Assembly (NCBI RefSeq): GCF_016613535.2
Contig: NZ_CP071518.1
Coordinates: 1,240,001-1,304,000, forward strand
Direction: 5' to 3'
Length of the DNA: 64,000 nucleotides
DNA from: Lysobacter solisilvae
Lineage (GTDB): Bacteria; Pseudomonadota; Gammaproteobacteria; Xanthomonadales; Xanthomonadaceae
Part shown: positions 1,639 through 33,990 of the stretch, in pieces
How positions within the stretch are numbered: position 1 is the stretch's first letter
Layout: each line of letters begins with the position of its first letter
Made by a program: the position numbers and the translations under genes
The notes under the pieces: generated by a model
Database searches by the model: none
Seen by the model: the letters and a program-made list of their open reading frames with translations, nothing else
Told to the model about the DNA's origin: nothing

Positions 1639-4417
1639 ATGAAGCGACTCGTCCTGATCGATGGTTCCAGCTACCTCTACCGCGCCTTCCACGCGCTGCC
1701 GCCACTCAACAATGAGCAGGGCGAGCCTACCGGGGCCCTGTTCGGCGTGGTCAACATGCTCCGCGCCACGCTCAACGAGCGGCCCGAGTTCATCGCCTTC
1801 GTCGTCGACGCGCCCGGCCCGACCTTCCGCGAGGCGCTGGACCCGCAGTACAAGGCCAATCGGCCGCCGATGCCGGACGACCTGCGCTCCCAGGTGCAGC
1901 CGATGTGCGAGATCGTGCAGGCGCTGGGCCTGACCATCATCCGCATCGAGGGCGTGGAGGCCGATGACGTCATCGGCACGCTGGCACTGCAGGCCGCCGC
2001 CGACGGCATCGACGTGACGATCTCCACCGGCGACAAGGATTTCGCCCAGCTGGTGCGGCGCAATGAAGCCGGCGCCGGCGTGGCGCTGGTAAACACGATG
2101 AGCGGCAGCCGGCTGGATTCGGACGAGGCGGTGATGGCCAAGTTCGGCGTGCGGGCCGACCAGATCGTCGACTTCCTGGCCCTGATGGGGGATAGCGTCG
2201 ACAACATCCCCGGGGTCGAGAAATGCGGCCCGAAGACCGCGGCCAAATGGCTGGCCGAATACGACACGCTGGACGGCGTGATCGCCCACGCCGATGCGAT
2301 TGGCGGCAAGATCGGCGAGAACCTGCGGCGCGTGCTCGACCGCCTGCCGCTCAACCGCACGCTGACGCAGATCCGCACCGACGTCCCGCTGCCGTTCGCC
2401 CCGTCCGAGCTGGTGCTGCGCAACCGCGACGCCGATGCGCTGCGTGGCCTGTACGCGCGTTACGGCTTCCGCCAGGCGCTGCGCGAACTGGAAAACGCCG
2501 GCGCGACGGTCGAGGACACGGCGCCGCCCGGCGTGCGCAACACCGCGGCCGGCTATGCGCGCTCCAGCGCGCCGGCCGCCGAAGTGCTCGACCCCCGCGC
2601 TGGCCGCGCCCGGCAGCTACGAGTGCCTGACCAGCGCCGAAGCGCTGGACACCTGGGTGGCCGCGCTGCAGGCGGCGCCGGCGTTCGCCTTCGACACCGA
2701 AACCGATTCGCTGGACCCGATGCGCGCCACCCTGGTGGGCATCAGCTTCGCGATCGAACCCGGCCGCGGCGCCTACCTGCCGCTGGGCCACACCTATCCG
2801 GGCGCGCCCGCCCAGCTCGATCGCGCGCGCACGCTCGCCCGCCTGGCGCCCCTGTTCGCCGATCCGGCCAAGGCCAAGATCGGCCATCACGGCAAGTACG
2901 ACCTGCACGTGCTGCGACGCCACGGCATCGAAGTCGCCGGCTACGCCGACGACACGATGCTGGAAAGCTTCGTGTTCAACGCGACCGCGACCCGCCACGA
3001 CATGGATTCGCTGGCCAAGCGCTACCTGGGCTACGACACGATCAAGTACGAGCAGGTGGCCGGCAAGGGCGCCAAGGCGATTTCCTTCGCCCAGGTCGGC
3101 CTCGACGAAGCCACCTGCTACGCGGCCGAGGATGCCGACGTCACCCTGCGCCTGCACCGCGCGCTGTCCGCCCGCCTGGCCACCGAGCCGGCGCTGGAGG
3201 CGGTCTATCGGGACATCGAAATGCCACTGGTGGGCGTGCTCGAGCGCATCGAGGCCAACGGCGTGCTGATCGACGCGGCGGAGCTGCGGCGGCAATCGGC
3301 GGACCTGGGCAAGCGCATGCTCGCGGCCCAGCAGAAGGCCACCGAACTGGCCGGCCGGACCTTCAGCCTGGACTCGCCCAAGCAGCTGGCCGCATTGCTG
3401 TTCGACGAACTCGGCCTGCCGGCGCTGGTGAAGACGCCCGGCGGCCAGCCGTCGACCAACGAGGAAGCGCTGGAGGCCATCGCCGACCAGCACGAACTGC
3501 CGCGCGTGATCCTGGAATACCGCGGCCTGGCCAAGCTGCGCAGCACCTACACCGACAAGCTGCCGGAGATGATCAATCCCGATACCGGCCGCGTGCACAC
3601 CAGCTACCACCAGGCGGGCGCGGCGACCGGCCGGCTGGCTTCCAACGATCCCAACCTGCAGAACATCCCGATCCGCACCGATGACGGCCGGCGCATCCGC
3701 CAGGCGTTCATCGCGCCAGAGGGCCGCAAGATCGTGTCCTGCGACTACTCGCAGATCGAACTACGGATCATGGCGCACCTGTCGGAGGACGAAGGCCTGG
3801 TGCGCGCCTTCGAATCCGGCGCCGACATCCACCGCGCGACCGCCGCGGAAGTGTTCGGCCGTCCACTGGATGATGTCACCGGCAACGAGCGGCGTGCGGC
3901 CAAGGCGATCAACTTCGGCCTGATGTACGGCATGAGCGCCTTCGGCCTCGCGCGCCAGCTGGGCATCGCCCGCGGCGAGGCGCAGGACTACATCGCGCTG
4001 TACTTCTCGCGCTATCCGGGCGTGCGCGAGTTCATGGAACGCACGCGGCAGCAGGCCCGCGAACGCGGGTTTGTCGAGACCGTGTTCGGCCGGCGCCTGT
4101 ACCTGGACAACATCAATGCCCGGAACCAGGGCCTGCGCGCCGGCGCCGAGCGTGCTGCCATCAACGCGCCGATGCAGGGCACCGCCGCCGACATCATCAA
4201 GCGGGCCATGGTGGACATCGACGCCTGGCTGGCCGACCACGGCGACGCGGCCCGGATGGTCCTGCAGGTCCACGACGAACTGGTCTTCGAGGTGGATGCC
4301 GGTTTCCTGAACACGCTTCTGGAGCAGGTCCCCCGCCGCATGGTCGAGGCGGCCCGCCTGCGCGTCCCGCTGGTCGTGGACAGCGGAGTGGGCGACAACT
4401 GGGACCAGGCGCACTGA
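1639..4417 (+). CDS. polA: DNA polymerase I (apparent +1 frameshift near 2592)
   Basis: Restoring one frame gives about 925 aa, the normal length for Pol I. The 5'-nuclease domain fills residues 1-290 (VLIDGSSYLYRAFHA; DDVIGTLA; STGDKDFAQLV; LMGDSVDNIPGV). The 3'-5' exonuclease domain follows (FDTETDSLD; GKYDLHVL; YAAEDADVTL), so proofreading residues are present. The polymerase domain has motif A DYSQIELRIMAHL, motif B RRAAKAINFGLMYG and motif C QVHDELVFEV. The role is gap filling and Okazaki-fragment processing. The frame breaks in a run of five C (2592-2596); removing one C joins AAEVLDP to ALAAPGSYECL between the 5'-nuclease and exonuclease domains. All catalytic motifs on both sides are intact, so I read the break as a sequence error rather than loss. 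Confidence 0.93.
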
Positions 4418-4563
4418 CTCGACAGTGGATGACAGCCCATCCGCCACGAAATCCCTGTTCAACTCCGATCGCACCAATTGCGGTAAAAAACCGCGCTATT
4501 TGCAGAGAATTGTGGGAATGAACACCCCCTGAATCCAACAAATTATTAACTGTTTTCTTCACG

Positions 4564-4716
4564 AACCATCCATGCGCGGGATGGTCATATTGTTCGCGAC
4601 AGGTGCAACGCCTGTCGTGATCCTCCCTCCCCTGGAGCGATCCCGGAAGCGACGACCCCTCCCCAGGTCCCGCTTCTCCAGCCCCGCCGGCCCCCCCTGC
4701 CTGCGGGGCTTTTTAT
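4564..4716 (+). ncRNA. Candidate small regulatory RNA downstream of polA (Spot 42/ErsA position)
   Basis: The stretch has no credible protein but a clear RNA layout. Hairpin 1 is ACCATCC/GGATGGT (4565-4571 with 4579-4585). Hairpin 2 pairs 4597-4605 with 4609-4617 around CAA. An unpaired C-rich segment follows, with TCCTCCCTCCCC at 4621-4632 and CCCCTCCCC at 4656-4664, both complementary to ribosome-binding sites. A terminator hairpin then pairs 4681-4687 with 4703-4709 and runs into TTTTTATT. The place right after polA is where enterobacteria keep Spot 42 and pseudomonads keep ErsA, and anti-Shine-Dalgarno C-rich loops are typical of Hfq/Rsm-type small RNAs. The 5' end is a guess: the AT-rich block 4480-4560 should hold the promoter, but I find no clean -35/-10. 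Confidence 0.6.
4681..4716 (+). terminator. Rho-independent terminator of the small-RNA candidate
   Basis: The stem GCCCCGC (4681-4687) pairs with GCGGGGC (4703-4709) across a 15-base loop and is followed by TTTTTATT. It lies 264 bases after the polA stop and points away from polA. Confidence 0.75.
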
Positions 4717-4903
4717 TGCCCGCGTTTTCCAGTGACGCTGTGTCGTCCGCGATTTTCCGGCGACGGGATGCTCCTCGTGGTGGCGTTCTCCGCCATGATG
4801 TTCCCGGCCGCGGCCGCGGCCGTGGGCGGCCACGAAGCGGTCGGGCATGCAGGCGCTGCCGACGCGCGCGCAGGTACAGGACATCCAGGCTCCGGGGGGT
4901 TGC

Positions 4904-5401
4904 ATGAGCGATCTGTTTGACATGGCGATGCCGTGGTGGGAGTTCGTCCTGCGGGCCGTCATCGTGTACACGGTGCTGCTGCTGCTGATCCGCGTGTCCG
5001 GCAAGCGGACGATGGGCCAGTTCACGCCCTTCGACATGGTCCTGATCGTGCTACTGGGCAACGCCGTGCAGAACTCGCTGCTGGGCCGCGATACCTCGCT
5101 GGCGGGCGGCCTGCTGCTGGCGGCCACGCTGATCAGCATCAACTGGCTGGTGGGCTACATCACCTCGCGCAGCCGGCGCGCCGAACGCGTCCTGGAAGGC
5201 GCGCCGGTGGTGCTGGCGCGCGACGGCAAGCTGTTTCGCGGCGTGCTGCGCCGGGAACTGGTGAGCGAGGACGACTTCAACGAAGCGCTTCGCCAGAACG
5301 GTGAACTCGACCTTGCCGACGTGCGCATGGCCCTGCTGGAAACCAACGGCGCCATCAGCATCGTTCGGCGCGAGGGAAACGGCCGGAATTGCGGCGAATA
5401 G
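4904..5401 (+). CDS. DUF421 / YetF-family inner-membrane protein
   Basis: The product has 165 aa. The N-terminal half has about three membrane spans (WEFVLRAVIVYTVLLLLIRV; FDMVLIVLLGNAVQNSLL; SLAGGLLLAATLISINWLVGY). RVSGKRTMGQFTPFDMV is the signature of the DUF421 family. A cytoplasmic YetF-like beta domain follows: ERVLEGAPVVLARDGKLFRGVLRRELVSEDDFNEALRQNG. ATG 4904 is chosen because GGGGGG lies just before it and the TM1 context starts there. The family's biochemical function is unknown. It stands alone between the small-RNA candidate and hemF, which is convergent. Confidence 0.85.
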   Translation: MSDLFDMAMPWWEFVLRAVIVYTVLLLLIRVSGKRTMGQFTPFDMVLIVLLGNAVQNSLLGRDTSLAGGLLLAATLISINWLVGYITSRSRRAERVLEGAPVVLARDGKLFRGVLRRELVSEDDFNEALRQNGELDLADVRMALLETNGAISIVRREGNGRNCGE

Positions 5402-31193: not shown

Positions 31194-31230
31194 AAAAAAA
31201 AGCCCCTGCCCGCGAGGAGCAGGCAGGGGT
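31194..31230 (-). terminator. Rho-independent terminator after the TonB-dependent receptor
   Basis: On the minus strand the stem CCCCTGCC (31229-31222) pairs with GGCAGGGG (31210-31203), followed by a run of eight T. It begins 34 bases beyond the receptor stop codon and separates the receptor from the SLC5 gene. Confidence 0.88.
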
Positions 31231-31263
31231 GTTGCTTCACAGCTCGCGCATGCGCCTGCGCGG

Positions 31264-33990
31264 TCAGAACTTGTAGTTGACGCCGAGCAGGTAGGTGCGT
31301 CCGTATTCGGAGAACGTGTTCGGGCGACCGGAGCCATCCAGCGTCTGGTACGGCTCGTTCTCCAGGTTGTTGACCTGCAGCAGGAAGGACAGGTCCTTCA
31401 TCGGGCCGCTCTGCAAGGTGTAACCCAGCTGCACGTCCGTCACGGTCTCGGCGCCGAAGACCCGCTTCTCGCGGTCGCCGCCGAAGCCCTGCACCTCGCC
31501 CACGAAGTCGGAGCGATGGCGTGCGCTCACGCGCGCCGCGAAGCCCCAGCGTTCGAAGTAGACCGTGCCGTTGGTGACGTACTTGGACAGGCCCGGCAGC
31601 GGTTCGTTGGGCCGGGTCGGGCCGTAGGGCTGGATGCTGCTGTCGTTGTCGGCGTAGTTGGCCTGGATGCCGAAGCCCAGCAGCGGCTCCCAGAGCAGGT
31701 CGAGGGGAATCGACACCGCGATCTCGTGGCCGCGGACATAGCCGCCGGTGCCGTTGGCCGGCCGCGAGAAGCGGCCGATGGGCGACAGCGACGGATCGAT
31801 CAGGTTGGGCGGGAACGCGGTGTCGCGGATGTCGAAGAAGCCTTCCTGCGTGTAGATGTAGGTCTTCAGGTCCTTGAAGAAGTACGCGGCGCTGACATAG
31901 CCCTTGCTGCCGCCGAAGTACATCTCCCACGACAGGTCGTAGGCGTTGGCGAGCCACGGCTCCAGCTGGGTGTTGCCGCCGGTCATGGCGTAATGCGGGA
32001 CCTGGAACTCGTCCGGGTAGTTGGGGTTGGGCGGATTGGCGAAATCGATGGCGATGTCGTTGTTCACCCGCAGCTCGTCCATGCGCGGACGCGCCATCTG
32101 CCGGGCCGCGCCGAAGCGCAGGTACTGGTCCCAGGGCAGCTGGAAGGACAGGTTGAGGCTGGGCAGGTAGTGGGTGAAGCTGGCGCTGTCGGAGACCGGA
32201 CCGCCTGAGGCGCCCAGCGGCAGCGACTGGAAGCCATCCGAGCTCTGCTGCGCATTCACCACCTGCAGGCCGACGTTGCCGCGCACCGGGACCGGGCCCA
32301 GGTCGGTGTTGATGTTGCCCTGCACGTACAGCGTGGTGACTTCCTCGTGGACGTCCCAGTTCTTCTTGGAGATGTCCGGGTGGTTCTTGGGATTGAGGAT
32401 GTAGACGTCGTTGAGCAGGCCCAGCGCATCCAGGCCCAGGAAGGTGATGCCGGCGAAGTTGAGGTCCGAGGAAGTGATGTACTGCGGCGGTATCGCCATG
32501 CCCTGGTTTTCCGCCGACGTGCAGCCCACCGTCAGGCACAGGGTGTTCTCGAACGACGAACGGGTCTTCTTGCGGTCGGTCAGGTTGACGCCGAACTCCA
32601 GGCTGCTGAACATGCCTTCGTCGAACGTGCGTTCCAGGTCGAAGCGCACCGAGGTCAGGTTGTCGGTGACGTCGAAGTCCTTCAGGTAACCGGCCTGCGC
32701 GCGATCACCGCCCCAGCCACCCGGATCCATCAGCAGGAAATTCGCCGGGTCGGTCAGGTCGAGGCTGAAGTCGAAATCGAAGTAGCCGTCCGGGTTGTGG
32801 GTGGCCACGACGTTGTCGTCTTCCACGCCCGGTGCCAGCCGGGCGTAGGTCTCCAGGATGCGCTCCTCGCGCTTGGTGCTGGAATTGCTGATGTCGGCAC
32901 GCAGGGTCCACTGGTCGTTGAGGCGCAGCTGGTGGTTCCAGCCAATCGCGAACAGGTCGTCGTAGGACGCATTGACGTCGTTGCGGATCACGCCGAAGTT
33001 GACGTTCTGGAATTGCACGCGGGTGGCCAGGTCGGCGTCGCCTTCGCGCGAGACGACGTTGCCGGTGCCGCCGGTGGAGAACTGGAAGCCGCGCTTGGTC
33101 TCCTCGCGGTCGAACTTGGAGTAGAACAGGTCCAGCGTCGTCGAATACATCTCGTTGGGACGGAACTCCAGCACCCCCATGAAGCCCTTGCGGGTGTTGT
33201 CGCCTTCCACGTCGAAGATGTTGCCGCCGTTGATCACGCCGGAGTCGTAGCCCCAGCCCTCGAAGACGTGCGACTGGGTCGGGTTGTTGAGCTGGGCGTA
33301 ACCCAGCGCCAGGCCGACGGTGTTGTCGGCGAACTGGTCGATGTAGGACGCACTGAAGCGGCTGCCGTGCAGCTTGTCGTCGTCGTGCTCGATCTCGTTC
33401 ATGTCGCCGCGCAGGTTCAGCGCGACCACCGGTTCCTTGAAGTCCAGCGGACGCACCGTATGCAGGTCGATCGTGCCCGACAGGCCCTGGCCGATCAGCG
33501 AGCCGTCGGGCGTCTTGTAGACGACCACCGAGTTGATCAGCTCCGACGGGTACTGGTCGAACTCCACGCCGCGGTTGTTGCCCGGGCTGACCTGTTCGCG
33601 GCCGTTGAGCAGGGCCGTGGAGAAGTCGCCGGCGAAACCGCGGATGTTGATTTCCTGCGGGCGGTTGCCGAAGCGCTGGGCGGTCAGGCCCGGCAGGCGC
33701 GCGATGGAGTCGGCGATGGAGGTGTCGGGCAGTTTGCCGATGTCCTCGGCCGAGATCGCTTCCACGATCGAGGTCGAGCTCTGCTTGGTGTCGATCGATT
33801 TCTCGATCGAGGCGCGGATGCCGGTGACGGTCACCGTGTCCAGCGTCTTGGCATCCTCGTCGGAGCGTTGATCCGGCTGCGCCTGTTGCGGCGGCGGCGG
33901 AGTGTCCTGCGCGTGTGCCGCGGTGGCCAGCATCAGTGTGGCCGAGGCCAGCGCCATGCTCAGCAGATTACGTTTCAACTGCACCATCAT
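31264..33990 (-). CDS. TonB-dependent receptor (carbohydrate type)
   Basis: The product has 908 aa. The signal peptide is MMVQLKRNLLSMALASATLMLATAAHA. A TonB box-like stretch LDTVTVTGIRAS at about residues 50-61 is followed by SIEKSIDTKQSSTSIVEAISAEDIGKLPD, the plug start used by oligosaccharide receptors of Xanthomonas and Caulobacter. The plug core includes LPGLTAQRFGNRPQEINIRGFAGDFSTALLNGREQ. The barrel ends in a C-terminal aromatic residue (LLGVNYKF), as needed for outer-membrane assembly. Predicted role: active uptake of maltodextrins across the outer membrane. The operator at 34133 lies about 140 bases upstream and is shared with the divergent GH13. Confidence 0.93.
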   Translation of the reverse strand: MMVQLKRNLLSMALASATLMLATAAHAQDTPPPPQQAQPDQRSDEDAKTLDTVTVTGIRASIEKSIDTKQSSTSIVEAISAEDIGKLPDTSIADSIARLPGLTAQRFGNRPQEINIRGFAGDFSTALLNGREQVSPGNNRGVEFDQYPSELINSVVVYKTPDGSLIGQGLSGTIDLHTVRPLDFKEPVVALNLRGDMNEIEHDDDKLHGSRFSASYIDQFADNTVGLALGYAQLNNPTQSHVFEGWGYDSGVINGGNIFDVEGDNTRKGFMGVLEFRPNEMYSTTLDLFYSKFDREETKRGFQFSTGGTGNVVSREGDADLATRVQFQNVNFGVIRNDVNASYDDLFAIGWNHQLRLNDQWTLRADISNSSTKREERILETYARLAPGVEDDNVVATHNPDGYFDFDFSLDLTDPANFLLMDPGGWGGDRAQAGYLKDFDVTDNLTSVRFDLERTFDEGMFSSLEFGVNLTDRKKTRSSFENTLCLTVGCTSAENQGMAIPPQYITSSDLNFAGITFLGLDALGLLNDVYILNPKNHPDISKKNWDVHEEVTTLYVQGNINTDLGPVPVRGNVGLQVVNAQQSSDGFQSLPLGASGGPVSDSASFTHYLPSLNLSFQLPWDQYLRFGAARQMARPRMDELRVNNDIAIDFANPPNPNYPDEFQVPHYAMTGGNTQLEPWLANAYDLSWEMYFGGSKGYVSAAYFFKDLKTYIYTQEGFFDIRDTAFPPNLIDPSLSPIGRFSRPANGTGGYVRGHEIAVSIPLDLLWEPLLGFGIQANYADNDSSIQPYGPTRPNEPLPGLSKYVTNGTVYFERWGFAARVSARHRSDFVGEVQGFGGDREKRVFGAETVTDVQLGYTLQSGPMKDLSFLLQVNNLENEPYQTLDGSGRPNTFSEYGRTYLLGVNYKF

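Follow-up and report, generated by a model that had tools for sequence, protein, structure and literature searches.

An sX13 gene behind polA in Lysobacter solisilvae and its probable kinship with ErsA and anti-hemB

The structured, C-rich stretch that follows polA in the window (the whole 64,000-nucleotide piece of Lysobacter solisilvae DNA that was analysed) raises the question of which RNA, if any, is encoded there. An earlier note on this DNA had proposed for positions 4564-4716 a structured small-RNA candidate that occupies the place of Spot 42 and ErsA and that would, if real, be lineage-specific. The first part of that reading is borne out by a strong fold, by the place behind polA and by a match to the Rfam model RF02232 (sX13); the second part has to be given up, since the RNA is sX13. 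The match covers 4607-4715 on the forward strand and the model in full (1-115 of 115), and scores 66.6 bits against a gathering cut-off of 50 (E 3.3e-10 in the window). sX13 is the sole Rfam RNA found at gathering in the whole 64 kb, and no other RF02232 match at E≤0.001 occurs in the 3.93-Mb genome. A permissive Rfam scan of positions 4300-5000 added a weak minus-strand match and a weak match to ar14 (21.6 bits, far under its cut-off of 58.8). The Rfam model of ErsA (RF01719) matched nothing in the window at its gathering cut-off and nothing in 4300-5000 at E≤10; that of anti-hemB (RF02837) matched nowhere in the window. By these model matches, the locus is, at the level of the window, a new copy of an already known RNA.

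The features of the locus are as follows.

359-805: bacterial DNA-binding protein, upstream of polA (Pfam PF00216).
2435-4417, forward: C-terminal part of polA, with the 3'-5' exonuclease and polymerase domains (Pfam DNA_pol_A, E 1.8e-157).
4563-4568, forward: putative -35 element of the sigmaE/ECF type, GAACCA (family block, class enrichment and published consensus).
4565-4585, forward: inverted repeat ACCATCC/GGATGGT inside the promoter (terminator-like scan and fold).
4585-4589, forward: putative -10 element of the sigmaE type, TCATA, 16 nt past the -35 element (same basis as the latter).
4596-4618, forward: SL0, 5' hairpin of 10 bp with a CAA loop (predicted fold and family covariation).
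4607-4715, forward: sX13 as delimited by RF02232 (Rfam covariance match).
4619-4642, forward: SL1, with the first C-rich loop, CUCCCCU (predicted fold).
4645-4677, forward: SL2, with the second C-rich loop, CCUCCCCA (predicted fold).
4680-4715, forward: SL3, intrinsic terminator with the third C-rich loop and a T-run (fold; stem 4680-4710).
4847-5401, forward: YetF/DUF421 membrane protein, the downstream neighbour, start codon uncertain (Pfam PF04239, PF20730).

Among the 80 polA relatives kept, the closest named one belongs to Lysobacter sp. MMG2 (88% identity over 305 residues). The polA gene itself (1639-4417) is not continuous in the sequence, its 5'-nuclease part (from 1639) and its exonuclease/polymerase part (2435-4417) lying in different frames. 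By eye the frames meet near 2600, and the open frame has 683 aa, where most relatives reach some 900 aa or more; the break is either an assembly error or a true split.

sX13 was described in 2013 in Xanthomonas (X. campestris pv. vesicatoria and relatives; PMC3771888) as an Hfq-independent 115-nt RNA located 175 bp behind polA, with three stems and apical loops of 4C, 4C and 5C. Its authors likened the polA position to those of Spot 42 and alpha-r7, and theirs was the only paper found in a literature search for small RNAs described as downstream of polA. The window copy lies on the same strand as polA, about 190 nt past the polA stop (4417), and three stable stems with 4C/4C/5C apical loops, by which sX13 membership is judged, are found in it. 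In common with the Xanthomonas RNA it has the full-length model match, the post-polA place, stems 1-3, C-rich loops 1-3 and the terminator; it differs in the letters of the loops and stems, and in that SL0 is recognised here upstream of the published 5' end. Across 60 genomes (its own and 59 relatives), RF02232 matched 50 at E≤1 and 30 over the cut-off. Of the 31 over-cut-off places, 29 are preceded by polA in the same orientation, both exceptions belonging to a single genome (G004).

A stretch some 190 nt past the polA stop with a terminator at its end would also suit the mere 3' end of the polA mRNA, with no separate RNA. We find this hardly credible, given that in Xanthomonas the RNA is a distinct 115-nt species whose deletion has a phenotype (PMC3771888), that the promoter block is conserved, and that 32 genomes of the class carry the structure away from polA only (see below for both). 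As judged from its family, its post-polA place, its covarying stem-loops, its three C-rich loops and its terminator, the window feature is an sX13 gene.

The 153 nt of 4564-4716 fold with a predicted energy of -71.4 kcal/mol (z -5.96, with no equal among 200 shuffles), and the sX13 part alone (4606-4716) gives a z of -4.93. Four stem-loops and three C-rich loops are predicted in the transcript, with unpaired C-rich segments at 4627-4632, 4658-4664 and 4692-4697. Several particulars of the earlier note can be judged against this fold. The two C-rich tracts that it had pointed out, TCCTCCCTCCCC at 4621-4632 and CCCCTCCCC at 4656-4664, are exact in position, and its description of them as unpaired applies to 4627-4632 of the first (4621-4626 having an unpaired probability of at most 0.08) and only to 4658-4664 of the second. 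Its view of two anti-Shine-Dalgarno loops is right in that both are C-rich and suited to block G-rich ribosome sites, but a third, in the terminator loop (4692-4697), had been overlooked. The proper terminator that it had seen, stem 4680-4710 with a T-run, does close the unit; a simple terminator scan, with two found against 0.8 expected, is unconvincing by itself. Of its two clean hairpins, the first (4565-4585) does not survive: because it falls between the -35 and -10 elements of the likely promoter it is probably untranscribed, and the repeat is probably promoter DNA rather than an RNA hairpin.

The covariance search against Xanthomonadaceae that the earlier note had suggested supports the stems. 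In 32 aligned sX13 rows, two-sided changes are seen in 19 of 23 pairs and 89.5% of the cells are paired, with a covariation score of 0.511 against 0.197 in shuffled and at most 0.078 in slid controls. The rows stem from the 31 over-cut-off places, one row being an off-place second match in locus L016, and they were aligned and fitted to a model trained without these sX13s. In terms of the separate helices, two-sided changes occur in six of seven pairs of the SL1 equivalent, in all seven of the SL2 equivalent (83.3% of cells paired) and in six of nine of the SL3 equivalent, where the other three are invariant; in an alignment of relatives (A7, described below) the corresponding counts are seven of seven, seven of seven and nine of nine. 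One pair in SL3 (unpaired in 19 of 32 rows) and one in SL2 (unpaired in 12) fit poorly. A protein-coding reading was also considered and set aside: open frames cross the stretch (e.g., 4572-4907, forward), but the compensatory changes in the stems favour RNA.

The 5' end of RF02232, at 4607, falls inside the loop of a further hairpin. Around this end the family loci carry a palindrome that forms a hairpin of 9 bp, or 10 bp in the window. In 35 family sequences (24 distinct), seven of the nine pairs show two-sided changes and 96.3% of the cells are paired; the covariation score of 0.481 exceeds both the shuffled (0.328, none of 500 as high) and the slid controls (at most 0.193), these scores being inflated by the relatedness of the sequences. 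In a first count, on 34 sequences, six of the nine pairs had changed on both sides, and further pair types were no more numerous than in many controls (their number was reached in 114 of 500 shuffles). The set goes back to 37 prepared references, of which 34 were aligned and to which L031 was added; the alignment is without L036 and L039, whose loops are of other length, and L040 was never listed. By this covariation, a 5' hairpin, SL0 (4596-4618), precedes the Rfam sX13 model and is present in sX13s generally. Transcription would start at about 4595-4597, at the foot of SL0, and the RNA would begin with this hairpin. The published sX13 5' end lies 10-12 nt downstream of the predicted start, in the SL0 loop.

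Alternatively, the transcript might start at 4607 and the palindrome (4597-4617) might be a DNA operator that forms no RNA hairpin. The coincidence of the published 5' end with the centre of the palindrome would suit an operator, as would the strong conservation of the repeat; the arms, however, co-vary with complementarity kept in seven of nine pairs, where an operator would be expected to retain its letters, and most members in the class start with a hairpin of different sequence. An operator is in our judgement improbable, and SL0 is treated in what follows as part of the RNA.

The range of this structure was followed with covariance models that do not derive from sX13. RNAalifold, applied to a plain MAFFT alignment of 13 class sequences, yielded a wrong structure, the stems having been shifted by unequal loop lengths, and the resulting model (R1) was not used. 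Model R2 was built from a hand-written structure on four well-aligned class sequences (alignment A4: L129, L174, L179 and L184), none of them from the order of the window. Over 60 class loci it gave 32 matches at E≤0.001, the four training sequences included; in L155 the match is on the strand opposite polA. It found ErsA in L147 (26.8 bits, E 1.8e-4) and anti-hemB in L153 (66.2 bits) and L152 (38.8 bits), each at the Rfam place. It placed the RNA correctly in 16 of 17 sX13 loci from the family of the window (E≤1; 10 of them at E≤0.01), with scores of 12.6-36.2 bits and a best E of 3.5e-6; the sX13 of L016 was missed, the sole R2 match there lying elsewhere. In the window the best R2 match is at 4615-4716 and is weak (E 0.03); a terminator-like match at 31195-31263 scores almost as well (E 0.041).

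Realignment of 47 R2 matches from class and order loci, with no member of the family of the window, gave alignment A7. All 23 pairs of its three helices show two-sided changes, 96.0% of the cells are paired, and the covariation score of 0.781 compares with 0.235 for shuffled controls and no more than 0.139 for slid ones, a result biased towards the structure to which the alignment was fitted. Model R3, built from A7 and thus with no Xanthomonadaceae in its training, finds the sX13 copy of the window with 33.0 bits (E 2.9e-5; second match at 31195-31302, E 0.0085) and ranks it first in the whole genome (E 0.0018, the next being 0.0385). All 31 over-cut-off sX13s are matched in place. R3 is less independent of sX13 than R2, its training having included order relatives just under the Rfam cut-off (49.5 bits in the genome of L036).

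Two further matches of these models may be recorded. The region 31195-31302 of the window, on the reverse strand, is a terminator-like C-rich structure and the runner-up in the window for both R2 and R3. In L016, a second match of both models (18.5 and 26.1 bits) lies at 1067-1171 on the forward strand, opposite to the sX13 of that locus.

At E≤0.01, R3 matches 86 of 149 class genomes, 63 being without a match. In 49 of the 149, polA is followed by a match on its own strand at a distance of no more than 1.6 kb; in five others the match is within 2.5 kb of polA on the opposite strand, and in 32 it occurs elsewhere only. The 49 post-polA genomes comprise 29 that are represented in the R3 training and 20 that are untrained, three of the latter being Xanthomonadaceae. 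On 80 named polA loci, R3 gave 75 matches at E≤0.05 (all below 0.001), invariably behind polA and on its strand, in genera including Xanthomonas, Stenotrophomonas, Lysobacter, Luteimonas, Rhodanobacter, Dyella and Luteibacter. Of the five loci missed, three offer at most 268 nt of downstream sequence. Outside the class, R3 found weak matches only (best E 2.9e-4), and no alphaproteobacterial kinship is proposed from them. RF02232 itself passes its cut-off in three of eight scanned order loci outside the Xanthomonadaceae, namely two Rudaea records and a Rhodanobacteraceae MAG (L298, L300 and L305). Because of these three outside records, the range given by the authors of sX13, exclusively Xanthomonadaceae, is no longer valid. 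At gathering, the Rfam matches in the 60 class loci are ErsA in L147, anti-hemB in L152 and L153, and a c-di-GMP riboswitch in L150. In other words, in 60 post-polA loci from as many families Rfam names a small RNA in three, while R2 detects one in 32.

The region upstream of the hairpins was analysed further. In 32 aligned family loci the upstream ends read CTTCACGAACyATCmATG, then rGTGGTCATATA, and then the palindrome at the Rfam 5' end. By this alignment the upstream block is conserved, in contrast to the flanks described as highly variable by the authors of sX13 (PMC3771888). We infer that the sX13 of the window is driven from 4563-4589 by a promoter of the sigmaE (RpoE) type. GAACCA-N16-TCATA is similar to the X. 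campestris sigmaE consensus, GAACTT..TCTCA, and to the putative smeIJK promoter, GAACCT..TCTTA (PMC4229105).

A strict pattern, GAAC[TC][TAC]-N15..17-TC[TA]NA, was drawn up from family and order loci before the class loci were viewed. The class test set consisted of the first 450 nt of 60 polA-downstream loci, from 60 families outside the order, taken from 145 class genomes with a polA match (best polA scores and a few others). The pattern occurs after polA in 16 of these 60 families on the forward strand, versus one on the reverse; dinucleotide shuffles of the same loci averaged 0.65 and never exceeded 4. Of the stretches behind the 16 pattern matches, 13 fold as four outer hairpins, the last of them a terminator, and L154, L166 and L168 have three. 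Individual C-rich loops are lacking, the CCCC of SL2 in L140, L152 and L170, that of SL1 in L147 (ErsA) and that of the terminator in L177, and L132 has a long insert ahead of SL1. For 40 further R3 hits, the strict pattern lies upstream in 21 on the forward strand and in none on the reverse (14 of 25 hits that are not behind polA on its strand, and seven of 15 that are behind polA and untrained). The pattern starts 45-62 nt before the model match in all 21, and 50 nt before the R3 match in the window; among the other 19 loci, several near-matches were seen by eye.

In the named loci, the strict pattern was found in 27 of 79 forward and in none of 79 reversed, with none of four Xanthomonas loci and one of 13 Stenotrophomonas loci among the positives. 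Three of the four Xanthomonas loci have GATCCA as the -35 and TTATA as the -10 element, and the putative promoter of the window is closer to the sigmaE consensus than in any of the four. Since the strict pattern is mostly absent there, sigmaE control of sX13 may have been weakened or lost in Xanthomonas and Stenotrophomonas. The rpoE gene of the genome itself was found (342 bits); used as a yardstick, the region upstream of this gene was not seen to contain the strict sigmaE pattern. Xanthomonas sX13 has been called constitutively expressed, and its level rises under NaCl, in minimal medium and at a temperature of 37 C (PMC3771888); the stress pattern fits RpoE control and is no proof of it. 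No literature connecting sX13 with rpoE was found beyond a mention in a reference list.

Because R2 matches all three at their Rfam places and R3 finds such an RNA behind polA in 49 of 149 class genomes, sX13, ErsA and anti-hemB look like one RNA, and they are probably forms of a single sigmaE-driven post-polA family. ErsA (RF01719, Pseudomon-1, of Pseudomonas) resembles the RNA of the window in its place behind polA and in being found by R2, which was trained on neither; that the earlier note saw no sequence likeness to ErsA holds for the Rfam ErsA model, but the structure model finds both RNAs. Its locus (L147) has a sigmaE-like promoter and a 5' hairpin; C-rich loops occur in one hairpin and in the terminator, the second hairpin not being C-rich. 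Transcription of ErsA depends on sigma22, and its gene is flanked by polA and engB (PMC8575079), whereas YetF/DUF421 is found downstream of the RNA of the window. For anti-hemB (RF02837, Burkholderia RNA 7), listed as ncS04 of B. cenocepacia (PMC5688073), the Rfam match coincides with the model match behind polA in L152, L153 and L209. The L152 form has a sigmaE-like promoter and an SL2 without the CCCC loop, and a copy not adjoining polA is matched in L187. The available portions of PMC5688073 and PMC3521395 list anti-hemB and do not mention polA. Burkholderia ncS35, for which Spot 42 is cited, was considered as a relative and rejected, no link to polA having been found in the text available.

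Spot 42 (RF00021), which is under CRP control, shares the post-polA position with the RNA of the window, and its model matches none of 149 class genomes, that of the window included (the E. coli control being positive). Spot 42 needs Hfq, and the alphaproteobacterial alpha-r7 (ar7) has three stem-loops with apical C-rich motifs (PMC3771888).

The likeness might instead be one of convergence upon C-rich loops and a terminator, with sX13 exactly as published: an RNA of the Xanthomonadaceae only, transcribed from a housekeeping promoter with its start at 4607. This agrees with the published range and constitutive expression, with Xanthomonas promoters that lack the strict sigmaE pattern, with the three separate families kept in Rfam, and with the difference between ErsA, which requires Hfq and has a U-rich unstructured domain (PMC8575079), and Xanthomonas sX13, which acts independently of Hfq (PMC3771888). 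Yet position, strand, order of the stem-loops and the promoter pattern with its distance are common to many families, SL0 covaries across the published 5' end, and RF02232 is over its cut-off in three Rhodanobacteraceae records, and we regard convergence as unlikely. The preferred reading is common descent, in which sX13, ErsA and anti-hemB would derive from a single post-polA RNA gene. This would likely be an ancient gammaproteobacterial gene, ancestrally behind polA and driven by sigmaE (RpoE), that serves as a general non-coding repressor arm of the response to envelope stress by blocking ribosome sites rich in G. We think it likely, too, that its typical form has the 5' hairpin, the C-rich loops CCUCCCU and UUCCCCAA, and a C-rich terminator loop, and that in many families it has moved elsewhere or been duplicated.

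The grouping of sX13 with ErsA and anti-hemB, which we hold to be likely, is absent from print as far as searched; no paper naming two of sX13, ErsA, anti-hemB and Pseudomon-1 was found in a search that took in few subscription journals. The comparison matters more than the window, which by itself adds to a known RNA one further copy. Xanthomonas has contributed a virulence regulator, Pseudomonas an envelope-stress RNA and Burkholderia an antisense candidate, each studied apart; if the grouping is true, the three would form one family that shares its promoter type and its position. sX13 should then respond to RpoE, the 5' end published for it should result from processing, and the rules for C-rich loops and GGGG targets worked out in one genus could be tried in dozens of families without an Rfam-named RNA.

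In terms of targets, repression by Xanthomonas sX13 needs the C-rich loops and a G-rich (GGGG) motif near the start codon, as in hfq and pilH; loops 2 and 3 are important in planta, and compensatory exchange in reporters did not restore regulation (PMC3771888). The hfq start region of the genome studied here reads GATTGGGGAACACGATG, with GGGG at -10 to -7, and the duplex energy between the SL2 region and this start region was no better than chance (8.7% of 300 shuffles as low). In the proposed mechanism, envelope stress would act through RpoE on the RNA of the window, whose C-rich loops would block G-rich ribosome sites as in Xanthomonas; the RNA would in this way give the envelope-stress response a non-coding arm that represses. 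Taken as a whole, the explanation that joins the sX13 identity with a putative RpoE-dependent start, action through the loops and common descent with ErsA and anti-hemB appears to us very likely.

Some loci depart from the usual arrangement of one copy on the strand of polA. Genome G004 contains two sX13-like copies (L010 and L031), both over the Rfam cut-off, and genome G006 two others (L032 and L033), both just under it, in each case with no polA in the flanks analysed. Tandem or neighbouring sX13-like pairs were observed in L040 (genome G024) and in G239, G280, G211, G282 and G260, those of L040 and G260 being behind polA. In L091, L094 and L155 the model matches lie opposite to the polA strand and point back at polA, and that of L155 has its own sigmaE-like promoter on this opposite strand.
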